Shown: one piece after another, positions 8,688-21,059 of the stretch
How the letters are laid out: each line of letters opens with the position of its first letter
Position numbering within the stretch: the first letter of the stretch is position 1
Source of the DNA: Buttiauxella warmboldiae
Lineage (GTDB): Bacteria > Pseudomonadota > Gammaproteobacteria > Enterobacterales > Enterobacteriaceae
Reading direction: 5' to 3'
DNA length: 40,286 bases
Assembly (NCBI RefSeq): GCF_003818135.1
Contig: NZ_RPOH01000058.1
Span: 1 to 40,286, forward strand
Position numbers and translations under genes: made by a program
The notes under the pieces: model-generated
Told to the model about the DNA's origin: nothing
What the model saw: the letters and a program-made list of their open reading frames with translations, nothing else
The model's database searches: none

Positions 8688-10232
8688 ATGGCCGAGTCTC
8701 AACCGCTACCCGACGCCCCTTGTGGAGCAGAATATCTGCGAGCCGTCCTGCGCGCGCCAGTTTATGAAGTCGCGCAGGTCACGCCCTTGCAGAAGATGGA
8801 AAAGCTCTCTTCGCGCCTGGATAACGTGATTCTGGTGAAGCGTGAAGATCGCCAGCCGGTGCACAGTTTTAAGCTGCGTGGCGCATACGCGATGATTGCC
8901 GGGCTGAACAGCGAGCAAAAAGCCAGCGGTGTGATTACGGCTTCTGCGGGTAACCACGCTCAGGGCGTGGCGCTTTCCTCAACACGCTTAGGTATCAAAT
9001 CCTTGATTGTTATGCCGGTTTCTACGGCAGATATTAAAGTGGATGCCGTCAGAGCGTTTGGTGGTGAAGTGCTATTACACGGTGCCAACTTTGATGAAGC
9101 GAAAGCTCGAGCCATCGAACTTTCTCAGCAGCAAGGTTTCACTTACGTTCCTCCGTTTGACCACCCGGCAGTGATTGCCGGGCAGGGCACGCTGGCGCTG
9201 GAGCTGCTGCAACAAGATGCGCATATCGACCGCATCTTTGTTCCGGTTGGCGGCGGCGGTCTGGCAGCGGGTGTGGCGGTGCTGATCAAGCAGCTGATGC
9301 CGCAAATCAAAGTGATTGCCGTCGAAGCGGAAGATTCAGCCTGTCTGAAAGCGGCGCTGGAGGCGGGTAAACCGGTTGATTTGGCTCGCGTGGGTTTGTT
9401 TGCCGAAGGTGTGGCGGTTAAGCGCATTGGCGATGAAACCTTCCGCCTGTGCCAGGAATATCTCGACGACATCATCACGGTGGATAGCGACGCTATCTGC
9501 GCGGCGATGAAAGATCTGTTCGAAGACGTGCGTGCGGTTGCTGAGCCGTCCGGCGCGCTGGCGCTGGCGGGGATGAAAAAGTACATCCAGCAGCATCAGA
9601 TTCGCGGCGAGCGTCTTGCGCATGTCCTTTCTGGGGCGAACGTGAATTTCCACGGTCTGCGTTACGTGTCTGAACGTTGCGAACTGGGCGAGCAGCGTGA
9701 AGCCTTACTGGCGGTAACGATCCCCGAACAGAAAGGCAGCTTCCTGAAATTCTGCCAGGTGCTGGGGGGGCGTTCGGTCACCGAGTTTAACTACCGTTAT
9801 TCCAGCTCCGCTGAAGCCTGCATTTTCGTCGGTGTGCGTCTGACGCGCGGCGTGGAAGAACGGCAAGAGATTATCGCGCTGCTTAACGAAGGCGGTTATG
9901 GCGTAGTCGATTTGTCTGATGACGAGATGGCGAAACTGCACGTGCGCTATATGGTGGGCGGGCGTCCGTCTAAACCATTGCGCGAGCGCCTGTACAGCTT
10001 CGAGTTCCCGGAATCACCCGGTGCGCTGCTGAAATTCCTGCAAACCCTGGGCACGCACTGGAATATTTCGCTGTTCCACTACCGCAGCCATGGCACGGAT
10101 TATGGGCGCGTGCTGGCAGCGTTCGAACTGGGCGACAATGAGCCAGATTTCGAAACCCGCCTCAATGAGCTGGGCTATGACTGCCACGACGAAACCCACA
10201 ATCCGGCGTTCCGCTTTTTCCTGGCGGGCTAA
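8688..10232 (+). CDS. ilvA: Threonine dehydratase (biosynthetic)
   Basis: A 514-residue PLP enzyme deaminating threonine to 2-ketobutyrate, the committed step of isoleucine synthesis, inhibited by Ile and stimulated by Val through two C-terminal ACT-like domains (about 335-505). PLP Lys62 lies in HSFKLRGAY, and the glycine-rich phosphate loop VGGGGLAAG is intact. Two consecutive ATGs occur (8685, 8688). I chose the second, which gives the E. coli N-terminus (MAxSQPL) and puts the GGAGG site at a normal distance of 6 bases. It is the last gene of the core operon. Confidence 0.97.
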   Translation: MAESQPLPDAPCGAEYLRAVLRAPVYEVAQVTPLQKMEKLSSRLDNVILVKREDRQPVHSFKLRGAYAMIAGLNSEQKASGVITASAGNHAQGVALSSTRLGIKSLIVMPVSTADIKVDAVRAFGGEVLLHGANFDEAKARAIELSQQQGFTYVPPFDHPAVIAGQGTLALELLQQDAHIDRIFVPVGGGGLAAGVAVLIKQLMPQIKVIAVEAEDSACLKAALEAGKPVDLARVGLFAEGVAVKRIGDETFRLCQEYLDDIITVDSDAICAAMKDLFEDVRAVAEPSGALALAGMKKYIQQHQIRGERLAHVLSGANVNFHGLRYVSERCELGEQREALLAVTIPEQKGSFLKFCQVLGGRSVTEFNYRYSSSAEACIFVGVRLTRGVEERQEIIALLNEGGYGVVDLSDDEMAKLHVRYMVGGRPSKPLRERLYSFEFPESPGALLKFLQTLGTHWNISLFHYRSHGTDYGRVLAAFELGDNEPDFETRLNELGYDCHDETHNPAFRFFLAG

Positions 10233-10244
10233 CGTTTCCTGAAC

Positions 10245-10280
10245 AAGGGATAACCCAGCAGGGTTATCCCTTATTTCTTG
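10245..10280 (+). terminator. Terminator after ilvA
   Basis: A perfect 12-bp stem (AAGGGATAACCC / GGGTTATCCCTT) with loop AGCA is followed by ATTTCTT, a mixed rather than pure T tract. The stem is strong, so it should stop ilv transcription before the accessory operon, though some read-through is possible. Confidence 0.75.
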
Positions 10281-10338
10281 CCCTATTTACCTTCCTCTGC
10301 TGCCTATTTTTTCGATACGCAGATCGCTACGACAAAAA

Positions 10339-10354
10339 TGTGATGCAATTCATA
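10339..10354 (+). promoter_or_regulatory. Candidate CRP-cAMP site upstream of the PTS operon
   Basis: TGTGATGCAATTCATA matches the CRP pattern TGTGA-N6-TCACA with one mismatch in the second half. It lies 124 bp before the first PTS gene, a reasonable distance for a catabolite-controlled promoter. I could not pick out a confident -10/-35 between it and the gene. Confidence 0.45.
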
Positions 10355-10477
10355 ATAAAACGCTCACCTTGTTGCGCCAGATCGCGCACATTTTTTGGTT
10401 TCAATATTTGTCGTTTGACCTGTGAGCCTGAATTAAATTGTCTCTAGTTAATTCTTAACGCTTAGGAGGATATTCGA

Positions 10478-10993
10478 ATGAGAGCGAATATAATTGATGC
10501 TCCGAATGAAAATGCACAACTATGTGAATATTTTCTGCCTCAGCTCACATTTCTTGATAAGTATTATGCCAATTCCATGGATTATTTTTCTTCTATATTT
10601 TTTCAACTCAAAGAGCAGGGCTTCGTGCAGAGCTCATTTCTTGAAGCAATCGTCGCTCGTGAAAAAACATATCCTACCGGTTTGCCTACGCTACCGGTGG
10701 CGATAGCCCTGCCACATACCGATCCTCAGCATGTGATCCGCCCCTTTATCTCTGTGACGCGCCTATCGCAGCCTCTGGCCTGGCATGAAATGGGTAATAA
10801 CGATAATACGATTTATGTACAATTTATTGTTTTACTTGGTTTTATTGAACATGGTCGCCACCTGGCGGCATTGCAAAAGCTGATGGATTGCCTTGCAGAT
10901 GAAGAGGTTCTTCAGACGCTACGTGAAATCAAAAATAGAGATACTTTTCTCAGTACCTTCACATCAAGACTGCAATTAGATAAGGATTTATAA
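10478..10993 (+). CDS. PTS system IIA component, galactitol/fructose type
   Basis: A 171-residue IIA protein of the PTS EIIA-2 (fructose/mannitol/galactitol) fold. The phosphorylated histidine is His80 in ALPHTDP, preceded by the usual REKTYPTGLPT stretch. It would take phosphate from an HPr and pass it to the IIB at 10995. E. coli GatA is about 150 residues; this one is longer at the N-terminus, but the AGGAGG ribosome site before 10478 supports the start. The first few hundred bases are more AT-rich than the ilv genes. It is first in a IIA-IIB-IIC operon. The sugar cannot be read from the sequence. Confidence 0.88.
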   Translation: MRANIIDAPNENAQLCEYFLPQLTFLDKYYANSMDYFSSIFFQLKEQGFVQSSFLEAIVAREKTYPTGLPTLPVAIALPHTDPQHVIRPFISVTRLSQPLAWHEMGNNDNTIYVQFIVLLGFIEHGRHLAALQKLMDCLADEEVLQTLREIKNRDTFLSTFTSRLQLDKDL

Positions 10994-10994
10994 G

Positions 10995-11273
10995 ATGAAA
11001 AAAGTCATTGTTGCCTGTGGAAGTGGTGTTGCAACTTCGCAAACAGTTGCCAGTAAGGTTTCCCGCTTATTGAACGAACGTAATCAATCACATATTAAAG
11101 TTGAAGTTATCGACCTGAAATCCCTCGATACCCATATTAAAGATAGTGCCGCTTATATTGCGATTACGAAAGTCGATAAACAATATCCTATCCCCGTAAT
11201 TAACGGTATCGCCTTTCTGACCGGTATGGGTATGGAACAAGAATTACAAAAGGTCATTGATGCCTGTAAATAA
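10995..11273 (+). CDS. PTS system IIB component, galactitol type
   Basis: A 92-residue IIB of the PTS galactitol/lactose IIB-like superfamily. The phosphocysteine is Cys8 in VIVACGSGVATS, the classic P-loop of GatB proteins. It relays phosphate from IIA (His80) to the sugar carried by IIC. It starts one base after the IIA stop, so the two are translationally coupled. Cytoplasmic; no membrane segment. GatB of E. coli is of similar size (about 94). Confidence 0.9.
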   Translation: MKKVIVACGSGVATSQTVASKVSRLLNERNQSHIKVEVIDLKSLDTHIKDSAAYIAITKVDKQYPIPVINGIAFLTGMGMEQELQKVIDACK

Positions 11274-11318
11274 GGTGTAGCTCTTTAATCCGTATAATTA
11301 TTTTAGTGGAGAAGTGCT

Positions 11319-12722
11319 ATGGACTTTCTTGGTGTAGTCATAAATTACATACTAAATTTAGGTGCACCGGTTTTTGTGCCTCTTATCATGCTATTAGCCG
11401 GGCTGGTGGTGCGAATGAAATTCCGCGACGCCGCATCTGCTGCCATCACGCTCGGCGTGGCGTTTGTGGGTATGAGCATGCTGATAGGCTTTATGGTTGA
11501 TGCTATCGGCGTGGCGGCACAGACCATGATGCAGCGTACTGGCCTTGAACTGAGTATCGTCGACGGTGGCTGGACGACGATGGCGAATATATCCTGGGCC
11601 TGGCCTTACGCGTTTGCCATGTTCCCCCTCCAGGTTGCTGTGAACATTGTGATGTTGATGCTGAACAAAACCAACACCTTCAACGCAGATCTCTGGAACG
11701 TCTGGGGGAAAATCTTCAGCTCGTTTATTGTGGTGAGCGTCACCACCCCATTGTTTGGCCCCGCCTGGAGTCTGGCGCTGGCGTTCCTGGTTGCTGCTTT
11801 CCAGATAATCATGGAGCTGAATGCCGGCGATATTCACCAGCATCGTATTGAGAAACTCACGGGTATTCCCGGCGTGACCTGTACGCATCGCATGGTGTTC
11901 TTTGGTGCCATTTACTACCCGTTCGATTTACTGCTGCGCAAAATCCCGGTGTGCAATAAACCGATGGATGCGACGGCGCTTCGCGCTAAGGTCGGCGTCT
12001 TTGCGGAAAACCATATTATCGGTTTTATTCTGGGGATCCTGTTTGGGATTATCGCCAGCTACAGCGTGGCGAAAACGCTGATGCTGGGCGTGCAGGCTTC
12101 CACAGCATTAGTGTTGTTCCCGATGATTTCGAAGCTCTTTATGCAGGCGCTGTCACCGATCTCTGAAGCGATAAGCGACTACATGAATCAGAAATTCTCA
12201 GGACGTAAATTGTTTGTCGGTATCGACTGGCCGTTCATGGGGGGGGCCAGCGAGATCTGGTTCGCCATTATCGTCGCCATTCCGTTCACCTTGATTTGGG
12301 CGCTGATCCTGCCGGACAACAAGATCTTACCTTTCGCCGGTATCATCAATATTTCCCTGATTGTTCCCGCTTACCTGGTGACCCGTGGCAACACGCTGCG
12401 GATGGTTATTCTGAGTATTATTGGCGTGCCGTTCTTCCTGTTCGTCGGGACGCAGTTTGCGCCAATGATTACCGATCTGGGCCTGGCAACGAAGGCGATC
12501 TCCATTCCGACAGGCCAGCTGATTTCAAATAGCTCGATTGACGCCCCTGTATTTACCTATGCCTTCTCCTTCCTGTTCAAGTTTCTGGAAGGTGACCTTA
12601 TCCCGCTACTGTTTGCTGTCTGGTGGGCGTGCGGTTACTTCTTCTACTCGCGTGAGTTGCGCCGTGAAAGTAGCTTGGCGCAACAGGAAGCCGGGCTACA
12701 GGAGCATGTTCAGCAAGCGTAA
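11319..12722 (+). CDS. PTS system IIC permease, galactitol type
   Basis: A 467-residue, very hydrophobic membrane permease of the EIIC-GAT family (E. coli GatC 451). Family signatures include IEKLTGIPGVTCTH near residue 190 and the acidic loop FVGIDWPFMGGASEIW in the second half. It imports and, with IIA/IIB, phosphorylates a polyol or sugar at the inner membrane. A GGAG ribosome site precedes 11319. The coding sequence contains an eight-G run at 12239-12246, worth remembering as a possible slippage or assembly-error site. The C-terminal tail is charged and cytoplasmic. Confidence 0.9.
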   Translation: MDFLGVVINYILNLGAPVFVPLIMLLAGLVVRMKFRDAASAAITLGVAFVGMSMLIGFMVDAIGVAAQTMMQRTGLELSIVDGGWTTMANISWAWPYAFAMFPLQVAVNIVMLMLNKTNTFNADLWNVWGKIFSSFIVVSVTTPLFGPAWSLALAFLVAAFQIIMELNAGDIHQHRIEKLTGIPGVTCTHRMVFFGAIYYPFDLLLRKIPVCNKPMDATALRAKVGVFAENHIIGFILGILFGIIASYSVAKTLMLGVQASTALVLFPMISKLFMQALSPISEAISDYMNQKFSGRKLFVGIDWPFMGGASEIWFAIIVAIPFTLIWALILPDNKILPFAGIINISLIVPAYLVTRGNTLRMVILSIIGVPFFLFVGTQFAPMITDLGLATKAISIPTGQLISNSSIDAPVFTYAFSFLFKFLEGDLIPLLFAVWWACGYFFYSRELRRESSLAQQEAGLQEHVQQA

Positions 12723-12742
12723 CGCTGGAATCGACGTTTATC

Positions 12743-12772
12743 TCTGGCGGCCGATACCACCGCCAGATTTTT
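12743..12772 (+). terminator. Hairpin with T run between IIC and the regulator
   Basis: An 8-bp stem TCTGGCGG / CCGCCAGA with a 9-base loop is followed by five T, in the 68-bp gap between the IIC gene and the regulator gene. It looks like a weak intrinsic terminator or attenuator that would lower regulator expression relative to the transporter. Confidence 0.6.
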
Positions 12773-12790
12773 CATCCCAGGAGAGTCGGT

Positions 12791-14854
12791 ATGGCTATGG
12801 ATAAACGCGCGATCGCAGTGCTGGATGCGATTGTGAACGACCTCAGTATCACGGGGACGAAGCTCGAAGAGCAGCTTTGCCTGACGCGTAAACAACTGAG
12901 CTATACGCTGAAAAAAGTGAATGATTATCTGGAATCGAATCACTTCGATCCTATCAATCGCCTGAAGACGGGGAAGCTGCATATTTCACGCCATGTGTTG
13001 GAGCATTTTCGCCAGAGCCAGACGGCAGAATCAGAGCAACGTTATCTTTTTTCGGAAGAGGAACGCGGGCAGATGATTATCTTTATGCTACTGACGCGTA
13101 GCGAAAGATTGTCGCTATTGCATCTGTCGTCATCGCTGGGAGTGAGTCAGAACACGATTATCAACGATCTGAAAAAAGTGCGGAGCGAGGTTATCGAACA
13201 CGGTTTAGAAATTAACTATGACCGGGGCAATGGTTACCATATTCTTGGACAGGAGCTAGAGAAGCGCTATTTGTTATTAAGCTGCCTGCGGCAAGTGCTG
13301 GAAATTCCGGTAGCGAAAAATATTATCGCCCAATATAACAACGTTATGAATGAGCATCTGGAAATCGTTGGCAACATTTTTAGTGAAATAGAAAAACATT
13401 TTAAAATTCAATTTACTGACCGTCAGCTCCAGGAACTTATTTATTTTATCTGTTTTGTTCTGCACCGTATTGAGTCAGGTAAAAAGCTGGTGACTATTCC
13501 AGACACTTACTCCGATATTATCCACAGTAGAGAATTTACGCTGATGCAAAGCGTTATCAGTAAAATCAATATCAACAATGAAAATGAACTGGTTTTCCTG
13601 ACAGCACTGATCCAGAGTTCCAATATTCAGAGTATCGCCGATAAATATCTCCATCTTGATACTCTCTTGCTAGAAAGCGTCGTAATGGTGGTTGATAGCT
13701 TTGAAAAAATAAGTTGTGTGACTATTAAAGAAAAAAATGAACTGATCGAAAAAATCTATCAGCACTGGAAACCTGCCTACTACCGCATTCGCTATCATCT
13801 CACCAATACCAGCAGCGTGTATGACTTGGTGATCAAAGAATTTAGCCATCTACATGAAATAGTGCGCCGGGCGGCGGTACCATTTGAAACCCTTTTGCAC
13901 TGTGAAATCCCGGATGAAGAGATGGCATTTCTGACGGTGCTCTTCGGTGGTTGGTTGACAAGAGAAGGAGTTATCCATCAGATAAAATTGCAAAAAACGG
14001 CAGTTGTAGTATGTGAAAACAGCGCCACCATTTCAACCTACCTGTATCTGGCGCTGCAGGTGTTATTCCCGGAACTGCACTTCACGCAGATGTTGTCCCG
14101 TCGTGAATTTGAGCGCTTTACCGGGCATTATGATGTGGTCTTTGCCACCACCCATCTGAATACCAGCAAGATGGTATTTGTGGTAAACCCATCGCTCGGC
14201 AGCATTCATAAAAGCGCTTTTCGCAACCATGTTATCAGCGCGCTCCAGGGCGTGGATCCGAATATCATCCAGATTGAACAGTTGCTGCTGATCTTCGAGC
14301 GCTTTGGCAACATCATCGACCACAAAGGGCTACAACGAGCGCTCGCCAGCTATATCTACGCGGAAAATAGTCCCGCCAGCTCCGTGGGCGGCTTCGAGCC
14401 ACCGATGCCGTCATTGATTGATTTACTGGGAAAAGCGCACGTCCAGTTTGCCGCAGAACTGCCTGCTTCATGGCAGCAGGCGATTACCCTGGCGTCGGCT
14501 TCATTGTTGCAAAGTGGGGTCATTGAACCGCGCTACGTGAAAATTATGCTCAATAAAATCGCCGAAGAGCAGCCCTATATTATGTTGGTGGACGGGGTCA
14601 TTATTGCTCATGCGGGCGTGGATGATGGCGTGTTGGATACCGGGATGGCGTTATTACGGCTGCCTTATAAGATTACCTTCGCCGATTATATGCAGGCCGA
14701 TATTATTATCGTCCTCGCTACCCATAACCCACAAAAACACTTAAAAGCATTGGCTCAATTAAATGAATTTCTTGAATTATATGATGGTGGCAACGTTATT
14801 CGTCGGGCGCAGGATGAATCTGCGCTGATAAGCGAAATCGCCCGCCATATTTAA
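12791..14854 (+). CDS. PRD-containing transcriptional regulator (MtlR/LicR type)
   Basis: A 687-residue regulator of the BglG/MtlR/LicR superfamily. Order: an N-terminal helix-turn-helix (about 20-45), a second HTH (about 108-130, LSSSLGVSQNTIINDLKKV), two PRD-like regions (about 170-390; His225 and His355 are candidate phosphorylation sites), a IIB-Gat-like domain with Cys408 (VVVCENSATIST), and a C-terminal EIIA-2-like domain with His607 (DGVIIAHAG). Such proteins are DNA-binding activators switched by PTS phosphorylation, unlike the short RNA-binding antiterminator BglG. The AGGAGAG site 5 bases upstream supports the start. It is embedded in the operon and presumably controls it in response to its own IIA/IIB. 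Confidence 0.87.
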   Translation: MAMDKRAIAVLDAIVNDLSITGTKLEEQLCLTRKQLSYTLKKVNDYLESNHFDPINRLKTGKLHISRHVLEHFRQSQTAESEQRYLFSEEERGQMIIFMLLTRSERLSLLHLSSSLGVSQNTIINDLKKVRSEVIEHGLEINYDRGNGYHILGQELEKRYLLLSCLRQVLEIPVAKNIIAQYNNVMNEHLEIVGNIFSEIEKHFKIQFTDRQLQELIYFICFVLHRIESGKKLVTIPDTYSDIIHSREFTLMQSVISKININNENELVFLTALIQSSNIQSIADKYLHLDTLLLESVVMVVDSFEKISCVTIKEKNELIEKIYQHWKPAYYRIRYHLTNTSSVYDLVIKEFSHLHEIVRRAAVPFETLLHCEIPDEEMAFLTVLFGGWLTREGVIHQIKLQKTAVVVCENSATISTYLYLALQVLFPELHFTQMLSRREFERFTGHYDVVFATTHLNTSKMVFVVNPSLGSIHKSAFRNHVISALQGVDPNIIQIEQLLLIFERFGNIIDHKGLQRALASYIYAENSPASSVGGFEPPMPSLIDLLGKAHVQFAAELPASWQQAITLASASLLQSGVIEPRYVKIMLNKIAEEQPYIMLVDGVIIAHAGVDDGVLDTGMALLRLPYKITFADYMQADIIIVLATHNPQKHLKALAQLNEFLELYDGGNVIRRAQDESALISEIARHI

Positions 14855-14957
14855 TTATTAATTTAACTTATTTGCAGCTCATACGCTGCAACGTTATTTC
14901 ATGGCAATAGCTGCCGTGACCGCGTTCGCTCTTACCACCGTATACAGGATAAATATT

Positions 14958-15620
14958 ATGTTAGAGATTCAGAAAAAACACGTCGTTGAAATGGCCAGAA
15001 CGGCCCAGCAATGGGGACTGTGCAAACATAAAGCAGGCAATTCCAGCGTACGGGATAAAGATACTGGGCTTATTCTGGTGACCCCTACCACCATCGATAA
15101 AATGCATTTAACAGCACGGGATATTGTGGTTATGGATGTTGAAGCTAACGTTATTGAAAGTGAAGCCAGCCTGCACCCAACCAGTGAATGCCTGATGCAC
15201 ATCGAGATTTATAAAGCGCGCCCGGATATTTTTGCCATCTCTCACACCCACTCGCTCTATGCCACATCGTTTGCCGTGCTGAATAAGCCGATCCCAGCGG
15301 TGGTGTATGAGTGTGCGATCCTCAACCTGAAGGATGGCGTGATCCCTGTTGCGCCGTATGGGCGCCCCGGCACGCCAGCGCTGTCGAACAGTGTAATCGA
15401 ACCGATTAAACGTGCTGACGCCATCCTGATGGAAAAACATGGTGCCATTGGTGTGGATAAAGACCCGTATGAGGCGGTACTGAAATCCGCCTACCTCGAA
15501 GAGATGGCGCAGATTTACTACCACGCGCTGGTGATTAACGGCGGTAAAGAACCGGAATCGTTCATGCCGGACGAGTTACAGCGTTGGGAATATCCCTCAC
15601 AGATTAAGTTCGCACGATAA
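14958..15620 (+). CDS. Class II aldolase/epimerase (FucA/AraD family)
   Basis: A 220-residue zinc-dependent class II aldolase/adducin-family protein. The metal ligands align with E. coli L-fuculose-1-phosphate aldolase (His92, His94, His155): here His96 and His98 (SHTHS) and His161 (EKHGAIG); the catalytic acid is probably Glu77 (HPTSE). Such enzymes cleave ketose 1-phosphates to dihydroxyacetone phosphate and an aldehyde, or epimerise pentulose 5-phosphates, so the reaction here is open. I chose the ATG at 14958 (AGGAT 7 bases upstream); an ATG at 14901 would add 19 residues not typical of the family. It lies between the regulator and the DhaK-like gene. Confidence 0.87.
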   Translation: MLEIQKKHVVEMARTAQQWGLCKHKAGNSSVRDKDTGLILVTPTTIDKMHLTARDIVVMDVEANVIESEASLHPTSECLMHIEIYKARPDIFAISHTHSLYATSFAVLNKPIPAVVYECAILNLKDGVIPVAPYGRPGTPALSNSVIEPIKRADAILMEKHGAIGVDKDPYEAVLKSAYLEEMAQIYYHALVINGGKEPESFMPDELQRWEYPSQIKFAR

Positions 15621-15668
15621 TTTAACCTACTCCCCGTCTTTCTGGCGGAGTATTCATGGAGAGAATGT

Positions 15669-16679
15669 ATGAAAAAGTTTATCAATCAGGCGGAGGATTT
15701 TATTCCGGAGATGCTTGAAGGCATCTATCTGGCGTATCCCGATCGCTTTCGTTTCGTTAATGATGATGTGCACTGTTTAGCTACCGCTCGCCCAGTGTCG
15801 GGGAAAGTCGGTATCGTGACCGGCGGTGGTTCCGGACACCTGCCACTATTTCTGGGCTATGTGGGTGACGGGATGCTGGACGGTTGTGCTATTGGTGATG
15901 TGTTCCAGTCGCCGTCTCCGGAGCAAATTTTGGCCGTCACTCAGGCTGTTGATAGTGGCGCTGGTGTGCTGTATCTGTACGGCAATTATAACGGCGACAT
16001 TTTCAACTTTGATATGGCGGCGGAAATGGCTGACATGGAGAGTGGCATCCGCAGCTGCACCGTGGTGGTGGCTGACGATTCGGCTGGCGCGATACTGGGC
16101 GATGGTGTAACGCACAGGCGTGGCGTGGCCGGGATTTTTTTCGTCTACAAATGTGCCGGAGCATCGGCGGCGAGGATGGATAACCTTGAAACTGTACGGG
16201 GTATTGCTCAAAAAGCTAGTGACCGCGTGCGTACTTTGGGTGTGGCGCTGTCGCCCTGCATTGTGCCACGCATAGGCAAGCCGGGTTTTTATATCGGTGA
16301 CAATGAGATGGAGATCGGCATGGGGATCCACGGCGAAAGTGGCATCCGTCGCGGCCCGCAGCTGAGTGCCAGGCAGATTTCCGAAGAGATGATATCCTTG
16401 CTTCTGGCCGATTCAACCTGTCAGCAGGGAGATGAAGTGGCGGTACTGATTAACGGTCTTGGCGCCACGCCGCTGGAAGAGCTGTACCTGATGTATCGTC
16501 ATGTGCAGCAGATTCTAGTGGAGAGCAGCCTCCGCGTTTTCCGTGTGTGGGTGGGTGAATTCGCGACGGCGATGGAGATGACAGGCATGTCGATTAGCCT
16601 GATGCCGGTGGACAGTGAACTGAAGGCGTTGCTCAATGCCGGTGCCGATACGCCAATGTTCAGCCAGTTTCCCGCTTAA
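15669..16679 (+). CDS. DhaK-like kinase subunit (DAK1 domain)
   Basis: A 336-residue DAK1-fold subunit. In DhaK the substrate keto group is bound covalently by a histidine; here it is His221 (GMGIHGESG). His57 (GGGSGH) and Asp110 (YGNYNGD) match E. coli His56 and Asp109. It differs from classic DhaK by HLP in place of HEP after the glycine loop, a trait I associate, without certainty, with the erythrulose-kinase-like branch. So the substrate could be dihydroxyacetone or a four-carbon ketose. It pairs with the DhaL-like protein at 16689, 9 bases downstream. Confidence 0.87.
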   Translation: MKKFINQAEDFIPEMLEGIYLAYPDRFRFVNDDVHCLATARPVSGKVGIVTGGGSGHLPLFLGYVGDGMLDGCAIGDVFQSPSPEQILAVTQAVDSGAGVLYLYGNYNGDIFNFDMAAEMADMESGIRSCTVVVADDSAGAILGDGVTHRRGVAGIFFVYKCAGASAARMDNLETVRGIAQKASDRVRTLGVALSPCIVPRIGKPGFYIGDNEMEIGMGIHGESGIRRGPQLSARQISEEMISLLLADSTCQQGDEVAVLINGLGATPLEELYLMYRHVQQILVESSLRVFRVWVGEFATAMEMTGMSISLMPVDSELKALLNAGADTPMFSQFPA

Positions 16680-16688
16680 GGAGGCACT

Positions 16689-17333
16689 ATGATGCTAGAT
16701 GCACAGAAACTGCGTCTGCTCTTTGCTGAATGGGCATGTGTGATGCAGGACAATAAACAGATACTGACCGAACTGGATAGCGTGGTGGGCGACGGCGATC
16801 TGGGTCTGACTATGAGCGATGGTTTTGCTGCGGCGAACGATGCGGTACAGCACAGTGATGAGCGCGATGTTGGACGCTTTTTTTATATCGCGGGCAAAGC
16901 GATGGCCTCAGCGGTCCCTTCCACTATGGGGACGTTGATGGCTTCCGGGCTGATGCAGGTGGGTAAGACTTTTAAAGATCGCGAGACGTTAAGTACAAAT
17001 GAGGCAGGGGCATTTTTTCAGGCCTGGTATGACGGCGTGCAGCAACGCGGCAAGGCGCAGCCCGGTGAAAAGACGTTCCTCGACGGTATAGCACCGGCGC
17101 TGGTGGTGTTAAAAGTATCGGCGACTACGCCATTGGCTCAGGCGCGGGAGGCTCTGCATCAGGCGCAATGGGGCGTACAGCAGACGACAGCCATGGTGGC
17201 AAAACATGGGCGCGCTGCTACCCATGGTGAGCGTTCACGTACGTTTATCGATCCCGGCGCAATGGTCGCCCAGCTCCTGATTCAGGGCTATTTTAACTTT
17301 ATCCTGGCTATTTTTCCGGCCGATGGGCAGTGA
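16689..17333 (+). CDS. DhaL-like nucleotide-binding kinase subunit (DAK2 domain)
   Basis: A 214-residue DAK2-fold subunit that binds the nucleotide and Mg ions and phosphorylates the ketose held by the DhaK partner. The three Mg-binding aspartates are Asp30, Asp35 and Asp37 (LDSVVGDGDLG); the residue after Asp37 is Leu where E. coli DhaL has His. GEKTFLDGIAPA and GERSRTFIDPGA are conserved. Two ATGs (16689, 16692) follow AAGGAGG, and the true start may be either. No DhaM-like EIIA is encoded nearby, so it may use free ATP like Citrobacter-type kinases, or a DhaM from elsewhere. It ends 16 bases before the HPr start codon. Confidence 0.86.
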   Translation: MMLDAQKLRLLFAEWACVMQDNKQILTELDSVVGDGDLGLTMSDGFAAANDAVQHSDERDVGRFFYIAGKAMASAVPSTMGTLMASGLMQVGKTFKDRETLSTNEAGAFFQAWYDGVQQRGKAQPGEKTFLDGIAPALVVLKVSATTPLAQAREALHQAQWGVQQTTAMVAKHGRAATHGERSRTFIDPGAMVAQLLIQGYFNFILAIFPADGQ

Positions 17334-17349
17334 GAAAGGAACCGCTATT

Positions 17350-17616
17350 ATGTTGAAAGAGATAGTGATGGTCAGCAATCAACACGGTATCCATGCGCGT
17401 CCGGCCGGCGTTCTGGCGAAAGCCTGTGCGCAATACCAATCGCGGATTGAGATGATCTACGAGGGTAAGGTCATAAAGGGTAAAAGCATCATGAGTATCT
17501 TAGGCGCGGGGATCAAAGGCAGAGGATCGCTTGAGATCATTTGCAGCGGCAGTGATGAGCAAGAAGCGATGGCGAAGCTGAAAGCCCTGTTCGCCAATGG
17601 GTTTGGCTTTGATTAA
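17350..17616 (+). CDS. HPr-family phosphocarrier protein
   Basis: An 88-residue HPr, the usual HPr length. His15 (HGIHARPAG) is the site phosphorylated by enzyme I, with the partner Arg17; Ser46 (KGKSIMS) is also present. It would carry phosphate to the IIA at 10478, bypassing the housekeeping PtsH. An upstream in-frame ATG at 17323 would overlap dhaL and add residues outside the HPr fold; the ATG at 17350 has AGAAAGGA about 9 bases upstream. It is the last gene of the accessory operon, with a strong terminator after it. Confidence 0.9.
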   Translation: MLKEIVMVSNQHGIHARPAGVLAKACAQYQSRIEMIYEGKVIKGKSIMSILGAGIKGRGSLEIICSGSDEQEAMAKLKALFANGFGFD

Positions 17617-17702
17617 CCGATCATAGGTCACGCTCTTTGGGCGCCGGTCGTAAACAATTATTATCCGGCATTCTGCTCCTGAGATGTCAGCGCTCAGGCA
17701 AT

Positions 17703-17736
17703 AAAAAACCCGGTGCCATTGGCTGCCGGGTTTTTT
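17703..17736 (+). terminator. Terminator of the accessory operon
   Basis: AAAAAACCCGG and CCGGGTTTTTT pair, with an inner GCC/GGC extension. With A before and T after the stem it should work in both directions, ending the HPr-side transcript and any transcript from the minus-strand pseudogene. Confidence 0.9.
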
Positions 17737-17772
17737 ATTGCCTGCGCTTCGAGTGCTGGCAGCGTGTAGTAC

Positions 17773-18175
17773 TCAAACTGAGTGGCACTCAATGCTTTCT
17801 TCGACCAGGATCTCTGGGGAGATGTCGAAATTCATAGCGTTGCCGGAGTCATTACCATAAAGAAAAAGTACACCGCTCCCCTGATGAACCACCAGGCTGG
17901 CTTCGATAATCTGGTCGGGAGAAGGGGAGGTAAACACTTCACCTGGCGCGTAGGTATCAAGACCGCCCTCGCCGATGAATCCGGCAAAGGTCGGTTCATG
18001 GCCGCTGTCACTGCCGCTCACGATCACCGTCTACTCACTCTTTGGCTGGGGGCGGTAAACCGCGCAGCATTCCAGTAGGGCGTTGATTTTTCCCCATTCC
18101 GGCGTACACCAACCCCTCCATGATTTCAGCACGAATATTATCGGTGTTGTTGAAGATCTTTTTCGGCTTCTGCAT
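17773..18175 (-). pseudogene. Decayed, truncated DhaK-like gene
   Basis: On the minus strand, a good ribosome site (AAGAGGGAA) and ATG at 18175 begin a DhaK-like N-terminus (MQKPKKIFNNTDNIRAEI...). That frame stops at 18035. The homology continues in the next frame as PEWGKINALLECCAVYRPQ, crosses an in-frame TAG at 18031-18033, and runs on as IVSGSDSGHEPTFAGFIG and MNFDI to a stop at 17773. So there is at least one frameshift, one nonsense codon and loss of the C-terminal ~200 residues including the substrate histidine. The loop reads GSDSGH for GGGSGH and NDSGN for NYTGD. It is more like classic DhaK (HEP) than the intact gene at 15669. Confidence 0.8.
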
Positions 18176-18510
18176 CGTCATTCCCTCTTGTAATGTCCTG
18201 TTTCTTTAGTGACGATTTTATCCGCAGTGTCTGTTTACGCCTGGCATCTTTGATACCAATTAATCTCCAGCCTAAGGGGCATGATTTTAGGTTGCTAACT
18301 GAGAGATTTCTTGATGGTTATGAAGGGATCAATCATTTTGTTAAAAGAAGCAGGGAGATGGTGGATTGCTTTCAGTGGTTTGCACAAGTAGGGTTCTATT
18401 TTTTTAGCAAATACAGGTTGAAAACGATAAAACGTGGTTTGAAGAGTATCGTTTTATTTACGGGTATAACGTTTCTTCGGGGGATTACCGATCTGATTAA
18501 TTGGTAACAA
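18176..18510. other. Gene-poor AT-rich spacer before ilvY
   Basis: 335 bp between the DhaK remnant and ilvY. One open frame (18193-18507, plus, 104 codons) has no ribosome site and no similarity I recognise, so I do not call it a gene. It includes a 9-bp inverted repeat AAAACGATA...TATCGTTTT (18421-18455, 17-base loop), which could serve as a weak terminator for ilvY on the minus strand. The promoter of the decayed gene should also be here. It may be a remnant of a larger insertion. Confidence 0.5.
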
Positions 18511-19419
18511 TCATTTTCCTTCTTCGGTTTTTTCCGCCCGTACAATCTTCCAGAAAGCATTCACCAGCGGCTCATTGAGCCGCTTTTTTTGTACGCAAAC
18601 GCCGAGTTCAAACGGCGTATTTTCATCGTTGCGTTCCAGTACTTGTACGCGGTTGCGTACCGGCTCCGGGCTATTTTCCAGCACGATTTCAGGGATCAGC
18701 GCGACACCACAGCCGAGCGCGACCATCGAAACCATAGCTTCATGTCCCGCAACCGTCGCGTAAATAAACGGGTTGCTGATTTTCTGGCGGCGGAACCACA
18801 GCTCAATTCGGCGACGTACCGGGCCTTGATCCGGCAAAATAAACGGCACTTTCGCCCAGTCGGGATCGGGCCGATTGACCTGCGTCCGCACCGGGCAGGC
18901 CAGTGCGGGCGCGATCAGCGCAACGGATAAATTATCCAGAATCGAGAACGCGACGCCGGGCGGTAATGTTTCCGGCTTACCCGCAATGGCGAGATCGGCT
19001 TCGCCAGAATCAACTTTTTGCACCGCATCGGCGGCGTCGCCAGTGGTCAGTTTTATCTCCACATTTGGATGTTCAGCACGGAATCTATCGAGAATAGGTG
19101 GTAAATGACTGTACGCGGCGGTGACGGAGCAAAAGAGGTGAAGTTCGCCGGTAAGCGACGGCCCTTCCTGCCCGATGGTGTGGCGCATTTGCTGATACTG
19201 CAACAGCGTGTGTTGGGCGAATTGCCTGAGTTGCTCACCGGCCTCAGTCAGCGTAACGGTGCGGTTATCACGTAAAAACAGAGGGTGACCAAGATCGTCT
19301 TCCAGGCGCTGAATCTGGCGTGAAAGCGTGGAAGGGCTAACGTGCATAGCACGAGCGCTGCGCCCGAAATGGCGGCTTTCTGCGAGGTGAAGAAATGTTT
19401 TCAGGTCGCGCAAATCCAT
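18511..19419 (-). CDS. ilvY: LysR-type activator IlvY
   Basis: A LysR-family activator of ilvC, 302 residues from the chosen start (E. coli 297). HTH at about residues 18-37 (HFGRSARAMHVSPSTLSRQI), then the inducer-binding domain (SGEADLAIAGKPETLPPG, MVSMVALGCGVALIPE). In E. coli it binds 2-acetolactate or 2-acetohydroxybutyrate, the IlvC substrates, and activates ilvC. I chose the ATG at 19419 (MDLRDLK, the E. coli N-terminus); an ATG at 19425 adds two residues and is equally well placed. It is divergent from ilvC, separated by operators at 19440-19491. Confidence 0.96.
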   Translation of the reverse strand: MDLRDLKTFLHLAESRHFGRSARAMHVSPSTLSRQIQRLEDDLGHPLFLRDNRTVTLTEAGEQLRQFAQHTLLQYQQMRHTIGQEGPSLTGELHLFCSVTAAYSHLPPILDRFRAEHPNVEIKLTTGDAADAVQKVDSGEADLAIAGKPETLPPGVAFSILDNLSVALIAPALACPVRTQVNRPDPDWAKVPFILPDQGPVRRRIELWFRRQKISNPFIYATVAGHEAMVSMVALGCGVALIPEIVLENSPEPVRNRVQVLERNDENTPFELGVCVQKKRLNEPLVNAFWKIVRAEKTEEGK

Positions 19420-19439
19420 GGTCATCGGTTCTCTTTTTT

Positions 19440-19491
19440 ACGTTGCATAAATTGCAACGTCACGTTGTTAATATATCAATTTAAGCAACGT
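19440..19491. promoter_or_regulatory. IlvY operators in the ilvY-ilvC divergent region
   Basis: Two related inverted repeats: a perfect one, ACGTTGCA-N5-TGCAACGT (19440-19460), and a second with arms ACGTTG and CAACGT 18 bases apart (19462-19491). The two tandem sites fit O1 and O2 of the E. coli ilvYC control region, where IlvY binds both and inducer alters DNA bending at O2. Confidence 0.8.
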
Positions 19492-19508
19492 ATTTCCTGT
19501 CATATAGT
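19480..19508 (+). promoter_or_regulatory. ilvC promoter (activator dependent)
   Basis: A good -10 TATAGT (19503-19508) has only a poor -35 (TTTAAG, 19480-19485) at 17 bp, overlapped by the second IlvY operator. A weak -35 beneath an activator site is what an IlvY-dependent promoter should look like. The predicted leader before ilvC is about 70 bases. Confidence 0.6.
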
Positions 19509-19583
19509 AAGTTCATTATCGTTTGCACAACACCGCTTACGACCCTTACAAGAAACATAACACCACAATCACGGAGTCCTACG

Positions 19584-21059
19584 ATGGCTAATTATTTCAA
19601 CACTTTGAATCTGCGTCAGCAGCTGGCGCAATTGGGTAAATGTCGTTTCATGGGGCGTGCAGAATTCGCCGATGAAGCAAGTTACCTCAAAGGCAAAAAA
19701 GTCGTCATCGTCGGCTGTGGCGCACAAGGCCTGAACCAGGGTCTGAACATGCGCGACTCCGGTCTGGATGTGGCTTACGCTCTGCGTGCAGAAGCTATCG
19801 CTGAAAAACGCGCTTCATGGCGTAAAGCGACCGAGAACGGTTTTAAAGTTGGCACCTACGAAGAACTGATCCCGCAAGCGGATCTGGTGGTTAACCTGAC
19901 GCCAGACAAGCAGCATTCCGCAGTAGTAAAAGCCGTTCAGCCAATGATGAAAGATGGTGCAGCACTGGGCTACTCCCACGGTTTCAACGTGGTTGAAGTG
20001 GGCGAGCAAATCCGTAAAGACATCACCGTGGTGATGGTTGCGCCAAAATGCCCGGGTACTGAAGTTCGTGAAGAATACAAACGTGGTTTCGGCGTGCCGA
20101 CGCTGATTGCGGTTCACCCAGAAAACGATCCGAAAGGCGAAGGCATGGCTATCGCTAAAGCCTGGGCTGCGGCCACCGGCGGCCACCGTGCCGGCGTTCT
20201 GGAATCTTCCTTCGTCGCTGAAGTGAAATCTGACCTGATGGGTGAGCAAACCATTCTGTGCGGCATGCTGCAGGCGGGTTCTTTGCTTTGCTTCGACAAG
20301 CTGGTGGAAGACGGCACCGATCCGGCCTACGCGGAAAAACTGATTCAGTTCGGCTGGGAAACCATCACCGAAGCGCTGAAACAAGGCGGCATTACGCTGA
20401 TGATGGACCGTTTGTCCAATCCGGCAAAAATCCGTGCTTATGCCTTGTCTGAGCAACTGAAAACGATTATGGCTCCGCTGTTCCAGAAACATATGGACGA
20501 CATCATCTCCGGCGAATTCTCTTCCGGCATGATGGCTGACTGGGCAAATGACGATAAGAAACTGCTGACCTGGCGTGAAGAGACTGGCAAAACTGCCTTC
20601 GAAACCGCTGCACAGTTTGACGGTAAAATTTCCGAGCAGGAATACTTCGATAAAGGCGTGCTGATGATCGCGATGGTGAAAGCGGGCGTTGAGCTGGCAT
20701 TCGAAACCATGGTTGATGCGGGCATCATCGAAGAGTCTGCTTATTACGAATCACTGCACGAGCTGCCGCTGATTGCGAACACCATCGCCCGTAAGCGTCT
20801 GTACGAAATGAACGTGGTTATCTCGGATACCGCTGAGTACGGCAACTACTTGTTCTCTTACGCGGCAGTGCCATTGCTGAAAGAGTTTATGACCACGCTG
20901 CAGGCAGGCGATCTGGGTAAAGAAATCCCGGCGGGTGCGGTTGATAACGCGCAGCTGCGCGATGTTAACGAAGCGATCCGTAACCACGAAATCGAAACCG
21001 TTGGCAAGAAGCTGCGCGGCTATATGAAAGATATGAAGCGTATCGCTGTAGCGGGCTAA
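19584..21059 (+). CDS. ilvC: Ketol-acid reductoisomerase
   Basis: A 491-residue class II (long, plant-like) ketol-acid reductoisomerase, the same length as in E. coli. It isomerises and reduces acetolactate and acetohydroxybutyrate with NADPH and Mg, the step after IlvGM. The Rossmann motif [14 protein letters not shown] lies at about residues 35-48, with nearby Arg residues for NADPH, and there are two copies of the C-terminal knotted domain. It is regulated by IlvY and its own substrates. GGAG lies upstream of the ATG and a strong terminator follows. Confidence 0.98.

Follow-up and report, generated by a model that had tools for sequence, protein, structure and literature searches.

A putative ketose-use cassette between ilvA and ilvY of Buttiauxella warmboldiae, with exchangeable kinase pairs and signs of lateral exchange

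Between ilvA and ilvY of Buttiauxella warmboldiae (contig NZ_RPOH01000058.1; the window, i.e. the whole analysed stretch of 40,286 nucleotides) lies an operon encoding a Gat-type phosphotransferase system (PTS), a PRD regulator, a class II aldolase, the kinase subunits DhaK1 and DhaL1 and an HPr, followed by the remains of a second kinase pair, dhaL2-dhaK2. We propose, with a probability of about 0.6, that it is a laterally exchanged sugar-catabolic cassette, in which a ketose would enter through the PTS, be cleaved by the aldolase, and have its free triose captured by a DAK-family kinase. An earlier reading made from the sequence alone, hereafter the first-pass annotation, had described eight genes in one orientation; open reading frames (ORFs) and Pfam confirm their number, order, strand, coordinates and families, with zero internal stops:

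10478..10993, plus strand: PTS EIIA (Pfam PTS_EIIA_2; His80 present)
10995..11273, plus strand: PTS EIIB, galactitol-like (Pfam PTS_IIB; Cys8 present)
11319..12722, plus strand: PTS EIIC of the Gat superfamily (EIIC-GAT PF03611, 211.2 bits, cut-off 24.2)
12791..14854, plus strand: Mga/PRD-type regulator (Pfam: two PRDs, Mga helix-turn-helix, C-terminal EIIA_2 at residues 549-684)
14958..15620, plus strand: class II aldolase of the FucA/AraD type (Aldolase_II; His96/98/161, Glu77, Tyr117)
15669..16679, plus strand: DhaK1, DAK1-type subunit (Pfam Dak1; His57, Asp110, His221)
16689..17333, plus strand: DhaL1, divergent DAK2-type subunit (Pfam Dak2; Asp30/35/37 retained)
17350..17616, plus strand: HPr-family phosphocarrier (TIGR01003, 77.8 bits, cut-off 47.9; Pfam HPr; His15)

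The catalytic residues previously called intact are all present (IIA His80, IIB Cys8, the three aldolase histidines, DhaK His221, the three DhaL aspartates and HPr His15). In the proposed pathway, the PTS would bring in a ketose while phosphorylating a terminal carbon, the aldolase would split the resulting phosphate at its C3-C4 bond into a triose phosphate and an unphosphorylated triose, and DhaKL would phosphorylate the latter, bringing both halves into glycolysis. The operon would be turned on by the PRD protein, itself phosphorylated via the PTS, with help from CRP. In the variant that we rank first, a ketose-1-phosphate would give dihydroxyacetone phosphate (DHAP) and glyceraldehyde, with DhaKL as a triokinase, a parallel to the liver route of fructose-1-phosphate, aldolase B and triokinase; in the second, a ketose-6-phosphate would give glyceraldehyde-3-phosphate and dihydroxyacetone. 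The ORF and Pfam survey found no dehydrogenase, no isomerase of the RpiB/TpiA type and no 1-phosphofructokinase-like gene in the operon, and a path from ketose to ketose phosphate, retro-aldol cleavage and kinase needs only the genes that are there. A polyol, formerly considered as entry substrate, is unlikely: with no dehydrogenase in the operon or among the reference genes, nothing listed would lead from a polyol phosphate to an aldolase substrate.

The aldolase belongs to the class II aldolase/adducin superfamily (Aldolase_II 151.5 bits, cut-off 22.2, with zinc ligands His96/98/161), and among solved structures it comes nearest to L-fuculose-1-phosphate aldolases (E 3e-24), then to AraD (5e-13). 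Glu77, Tyr117 and the three histidines align with FucA Glu73, Tyr113 and the zinc ligands, and Asn28, Thr44, Thr75 and Ser76 are invariant in 18/18 aldolases. Because of these nearest structures and of the matches at Glu77, Tyr117 and the phosphate pocket, we prefer FucA-type chemistry, i.e. cleavage of a ketose-1-phosphate to DHAP and glyceraldehyde. Several points weigh against this choice. The protein scores far under every NCBIfam cut-off listed, both for FucA equivalogs (104.6/400.25 bits for TIGR01086, 122.9/264 for PRK06833) and for L-ribulose-5-phosphate 4-epimerases (82/389.1 for araD and, as the best of all, 133.5/251 for PRK06557), so that its reaction is unreadable from family membership and could be an epimerization. 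The phosphate-pocket roles of Asn28, Thr44, Thr75 and Ser76 and the catalytic roles of Glu77 and Tyr117 are presumed from those of FucA; the AlphaFold model is poor and uninformative (mean pLDDT 54); and either half of the substrate may be the phosphorylated one.

A possible but clearly less probable alternative is that the PTS delivers a pentulose-5-phosphate or a ketohexose-6-phosphate, from which the aldolase would free glycolaldehyde phosphate or glyceraldehyde-3-phosphate together with dihydroxyacetone, DhaKL then being a plain dihydroxyacetone kinase in an FSA-like route. DAK-family kinases are indeed best known for dihydroxyacetone, the top NCBIfam score of the aldolase comes from an AraD-like subfamily that handles 5-phosphates, and a Listeria locus combines DhaKL with an FSA-type aldolase. 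However, Glu77 is FucA-like at a position where AraD, we assume, carries Asp, and the nearest structures are those of FucA, a ketose-1-phosphate enzyme. As for the transporter, the galactitol type assigned by the first-pass annotation holds at the level of the Gat superfamily, with IIC over the EIIC-GAT gathering score; galactitol itself was ruled out by scores below the equivalog or subfamily cut-offs for IIA (51.8/139), IIB (49.6/95) and IIC (241.3/542.2 bits, TIGR00827).

We looked for the same genes in other genomes, as that annotation had suggested, and found them at ilvA-ilvY in Kluyvera, Klebsiella spallanzanii and Citrobacter, and elsewhere in Hafnia, on plasmids and in f27, a distant family of Enterobacterales; an eight-gene set unique to the window genome was thereby ruled out. 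The scan of genome contigs gave nine loci (six Kluyvera records, Citrobacter sp. 18056, K. spallanzanii and Hafnia alvei), eight of them with ilvA directly upstream, the Hafnia locus having no ilv gene across 20.6 kb. Among the nine, the K. ascorbata and K. sichuanensis stretches stop before a complete second kinase pair, the K. genomosp. 3 assembly is fragmented into many frames, and the regulator of Citrobacter 18056 is split. Protein searches were run on samples of 198 genomes from the window's family, 345 from its order and 398 from its phylum. The family sample has an aldolase match at E <= 1e-20 in 33 genomes, reaching at least 84% identity in only three, i.e. the window genome (G000), G084, with the eight genes at the ilvA site and no second pair, and G126, with ten genes and no ilv gene within 16 kb. 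At E <= 1e-40, the order sample gave 15 genomes (the window and 14 from f27) and the phylum sample the window alone.

Half of the f27 genomes (22/44) carry the locus. Their loci have a G+C content of 33-48% and sit in genomes of 2.2-3.1 Mb, values that would fit Orbaceae (Gilliamella and relatives). IIA (40-48% identity), IIB (78-87%), IIC, the PRD regulator and the aldolase (76-82%) were found in 22/22. DhaK2-DhaL2 lies inside the fetched stretch in 21, and on a separate contig in the last one (G377, L152). HPr and DhaK1-DhaL1, although in the set of the first-pass annotation, do not belong to the conserved part: in f27, DhaK1-DhaL1 is in 3/22 loci (G452, G888 and G890), HPr is in one (G890, 41%), and DhaK2-DhaL2 is the only pair in 19. 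One f27 genome, G308, has a broken IIC and a stop in dhaK2, and in three other f27 loci the IIC alignment runs across a stop. Outside f27, DhaK1, DhaL1 and HPr are present in all 11 chromosomal loci that extend beyond DhaL1 (window and G084 counted; K. genomosp. 3 in pieces), without the second pair in the window and G084 only and with both pairs in others. The tblastn tables behind these loci, those of f27 and the genus survey omit matches overlapped by better ones. Among loci that could be judged, none lacks both kinase pairs, and either pair may stand alone. On this comparison, the core of the locus is a Gat-type IIABC, the PRD regulator, the FucA-like aldolase and one or both DhaKL pairs, HPr mostly accompanying DhaK1-DhaL1. 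The recurrence in distant genomes argues that PTS, aldolase and DhaKL belong together, as had been suspected from the window, and the three kinase states (pair 1, pair 2 or both) fit a common task downstream of the aldolase.

The fuller form of the locus thus has ten genes, and the set of eight is not closed as first described. The earlier description missed a remnant between HPr and ilvY, convergent to the operon:

17764..18175, minus strand: dhaK2 remnant (frameshift, stops, 3' part gone; dhaL2 wholly absent)

It aligns with an intact relative over residues 1-29 and 19-133 of the latter, in separate frames and across stops, the remaining dhaK2 being largely lost. At this very place, an intact dhaL2-dhaK2 pair faces the operon in a Citrobacter freundii plasmid P3 segment (L004), in a segment of an IncN-type plasmid (L005), and in the chromosomes of Kluyvera, Citrobacter sp. 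18056 and K. spallanzanii (L054-L056, L059 and L060), which identifies the window locus as a reduced version of the ten-gene locus, its second kinase pair decayed. This raises the question of whether the window copy is altogether a decaying, non-functional leftover. We consider this unlikely: dhaK2 is broken and dhaL2 lost, and the copy of a genus-mate, G869, is broken in IIA, IIB, IIC and dhaK2, yet in the window the eight remaining ORFs have stayed whole, together with their named catalytic residues, and G084 likewise has these eight genes with the second pair absent. Between HPr and dhaL2, some loci hold the enoyl-ACP reductase gene fabV (726 bits, cut-off 400; L005:16420-17613, also L054, L058, L062 and L146); its carriers are K. 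georgiana, K. sichuanensis, K. genomosp. 3, IncN-type plasmids and G869, and it has no apparent link to sugar use. K. sichuanensis has about 5 kb of additional DNA from HPr to fabV (L058:12650-17720).

The two kinase pairs are, on these alignments and trees, old and distinct lineages. DhaK1 and DhaK2 share about 41-44% identity and DhaK2 forms a separate clade (100/100), ruling out a recent DhaKL duplication. DhaK1 and DhaL1 each join Agrobacterium DhaKL (100/99 in both trees); the DhaL2 clade has a support of 88/88, in a DhaL tree with long-branch warnings whose deep joins are unreliable. Membership of the DAK family is borne out by the Dak1 and Dak2 Pfam domains and the catalytic His and Asp residues. 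DhaL1 has VPSTMG in place of GGASG in its nucleotide loop and D-L-G in place of D-H-G, and keeps the three Asp; it scores just below the DhaL equivalog cut-off (TIGR02365, 135.6/138.3 bits), the DhaL2 proteins of relatives scoring above it (177.8/138.3), and the ATP-type DhaL model gives DhaL2 126 bits vs 69.8 bits for DhaL1. The operon has no gene for DhaM, the donor of PTS-dependent DhaKLM. A full-length DhaM scored above cut-off in two of the seven genomes searched (G084 and G126) and was not found in the window genome, G504, G387, G452 or G279; on this ground, ATP is the presumed phosphoryl donor of DhaKL. The window genome does encode three EIIA-man ORFs of 146-156 aa, and a single-domain DhaM is possible. 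G504, G387 and G452 have one EIIA-man match apiece, and since it lies in an ORF of 326-332 aa, their DhaK2-DhaL2 is probably independent of DhaM.

We can now return to two readings that change the roles of the enzymes. That the aldolase-family protein instead acts as a sugar-phosphate 4-epimerase or as a decarboxylase, with DhaKL on a separate, erythrulose-like short-ketose branch, is improbable: the superfamily is mixed, with epimerases, decarboxylases and dehydratases also scoring, and DhaKL-like kinases stand with RpiB and an alcohol dehydrogenase in loci without such an aldolase, but the operon has no RpiB/TpiA-type isomerase and aldolase and DhaKL are kept together across distant genomes. 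Even more speculative, and very improbable in our estimate, is that DhaK1-DhaL1-HPr is a novel type of DAK kinase, in which the operon's HPr would replace DhaM as the link between the kinase and PTS phosphate, or which would be adapted to another carbonyl substrate; this idea comes from the change of GGASG to VPSTMG, the lack of a full-length DhaM among those found and the operon's own HPr. If true, DhaK1-DhaL1-HPr, the PTS and the aldolase would together amount to a bacterial, PTS-based counterpart of the ketose-1-phosphate/triokinase route.

The first-pass annotation had called the operon accessory and inserted between ilvA and ilvY, which it noted to be adjacent in E. coli; lateral acquisition at this site finds support. 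The two genes are adjacent in MG1655, and in the window's genus the site is empty in 10/12 genomes, where the aligned ends lie about 14 bases apart; the locus is present in the window and G869. The IlvY tail reads ..AFWKLLPGxx in 10/10 empty sites and ..AFWKIV.. in the carriers examined (window, G869, G084, plasmid L005 and four Kluyvera or Klebsiella loci), with ..AFWNIV.. in the Citrobacter carrier and AFWKILP in E. coli. In 500-base steps, identity between the window and K. intermedia goes from 77-87% in ilvD-ilvA to 85-92% over 10335 to 15834, and that between G869 and K. sichuanensis goes from 73-92% up to base 10261 of L151 (the ilvA 3' end) to 94-98%. At third codon positions (best stretch per gene only), the window and K. 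intermedia share 73-77% in IIA, IIB, IIC, PRD, aldolase and HPr, 71% in DhaL1 and 61% in DhaK1, compared to 60% in ilvD, 54% in ilvA, 50% in ilvY and 64% in ilvC. Identity profiles and ilvY tails indicate allelic exchange via the ilv flanks, with separate donors for the window and G869. On the other side of the balance, the values of ilvC and ilvD overlap that of DhaK1, unequal constraint among genes could partly mimic a transfer signal, and deletions at the ten empty sites could account for part of the pattern.

The locus has also moved onto plasmids. It matches 54 plasmid records (Klebsiella 26, Escherichia 11, Enterobacter 10 and Citrobacter 7), and in 38 of them the match spans 80% or more of the query; in E. 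coli, 8/5426 genomes match and all 10 places are on plasmids. One record filed as a plasmid, L171 (NZ_OL790696.1), is a 4.8 Mb E. coli sequence, evidently chromosome-sized. The L005 segment, between IS1 copies, comprises a partial ilvD, ilvA, the fabV-bearing locus, ilvY, ilvC and ppiC. Considering stretches over 400 bases only, it matches K. genomosp. 3 at 98.0% identity over 14.2 kb and at 98.4% over 3.7 kb, and the P3 segment of C. freundii matches K. cryocrescens at 99.65% over 9.7 kb. The two plasmid segments are independent Kluyvera-derived captures. In L006 (11460-20773), Tn4401 with KPC-3 sits inside the regulator gene of the plasmid copy, and IIA, IIB and IIC remain ahead of it.

The first-pass annotation knew of no characterised pathway with this exact set, and among the matches listed in the open-licence PMC literature (subscription papers being outside this scope) we found none either. 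The nearest arrangement among them, compared by description, is lmo2093-lmo2099 of Listeria monocytogenes: one operon there joins Gat-type IIA, IIB and IIC to a regulator of the antiterminator type and to an aldolase annotated for L-fuculose-phosphate, which the authors suggest may act on tagatose-1,6-bisphosphate (PMC3721983). It has a 1-phosphofructokinase-like kinase instead of DhaKL, and this kinase would precede cleavage, whereas the window's DhaKL would follow it (PMC3721983). The D-tagatose PTS pathway tagTKH-gatY would share with the proposed route PTS entry as a ketohexose 1-phosphate and aldol cleavage; in contrast, TagK makes the 1,6-bisphosphate before GatY cleaves, and DhaKL has no part in it (PMC10101011). 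The enteric galactitol gat operon is similar in its Gat-type IIABC, but the window operon lacks its dehydrogenase and GatYZ; PTS-dependent DhaKLM is similar in DhaK and DhaL with their catalytic residues, but DhaM is missing here. Clostridioides difficile (L077) has GatABC beside a class II aldolase that shares 36.7% identity with that of the window, yet with a sigma-54 type regulator and no DhaKL within 16.6 kb. This "plasmid" record (NZ_CP149745.1) may be chromosomal, as housekeeping genes (proline-tRNA ligases, gltX, ispDF) adjoin GatABC and the aldolase. Lastly, the DhaKL of Agrobacterium sp. RAC06 (L079) groups with DhaK1/DhaL1, with the PSTMG loop and D-L-G motif common to both, but its locus has uptake by a sugar ABC transporter, an FGGY kinase and no aldolase of the window's type.

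The borders and the upstream region of the operon are as follows:

10245..10272, plus strand: terminator-like hairpin of ilvA, left border (T-rich tail; -20.3 kcal/mol, z -5.35, 0/200 shuffles as good)
10335..10477, plus strand: promoter/operator region (blocks conserved in most of 10 aligned loci)
17700..17739, no strand assigned: near-symmetric terminator hairpin between convergent units, which borders the intact operon on the right (T-rich tail; -23.9 kcal/mol, z -4.97)

A terminator at each end had been predicted and both hairpins are there; the consensus scan lists the left one and omits the right one. ilvA ends at 10232 and ilvY occupies 18511-19425 on the minus strand. In the 10-locus alignment, a first upstream block reads TGTGA-N6-TCATA, which we take to be a CRP-like site, and a second is the inverted repeat GAATTAA..GTTAATTC, about 30 bp ahead of the IIA start. 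Given the weak RNA fold of this repeat (z -1.39), we set aside an antiterminator hairpin and consider a putative DNA operator likelier, which would suit control of the operon by its PRD regulator. Of the two PTS-like domains formerly ascribed to this regulator, the EIIA_2 is there and a IIB-like one went unreported by Pfam at E <= 1e-3. A promoter scan was uninformative (11 sites vs 11.8 expected). A defence system or an RNA element was ruled out as a reading: Rfam gave zero RNA elements within 10200-19600, and the one PADLOC match among 3 proteins was a weak match of the regulator to WYL (17.1 bits). A 104-aa plus-strand ORF without a PADLOC match lies at 18193-18507, in the disturbed junction between the dhaK2 remnant and ilvY. 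In the ORF listing, the aldolase and HPr start further upstream (at 14901 and 17323); the aldolase Met at 14958 is common to 18/18 aligned aldolases (window counted, starts chosen by us), and plasmid annotation has identical starts for both genes.

If the proposed cassette works as described, it would be an uncharacterised route of ketose use, with aldol cleavage ahead of the second phosphorylation. The locus may also offer a natural kinase swap, as its three states (pair 1, pair 2 and both) can be compared, and ilvA-ilvY would represent a housekeeping junction that serves as an exchange site through its flanking homology. Any metabolic benefit of the Kluyvera copies on plasmids, some beside a carbapenemase transposon, could influence the persistence of these plasmids.

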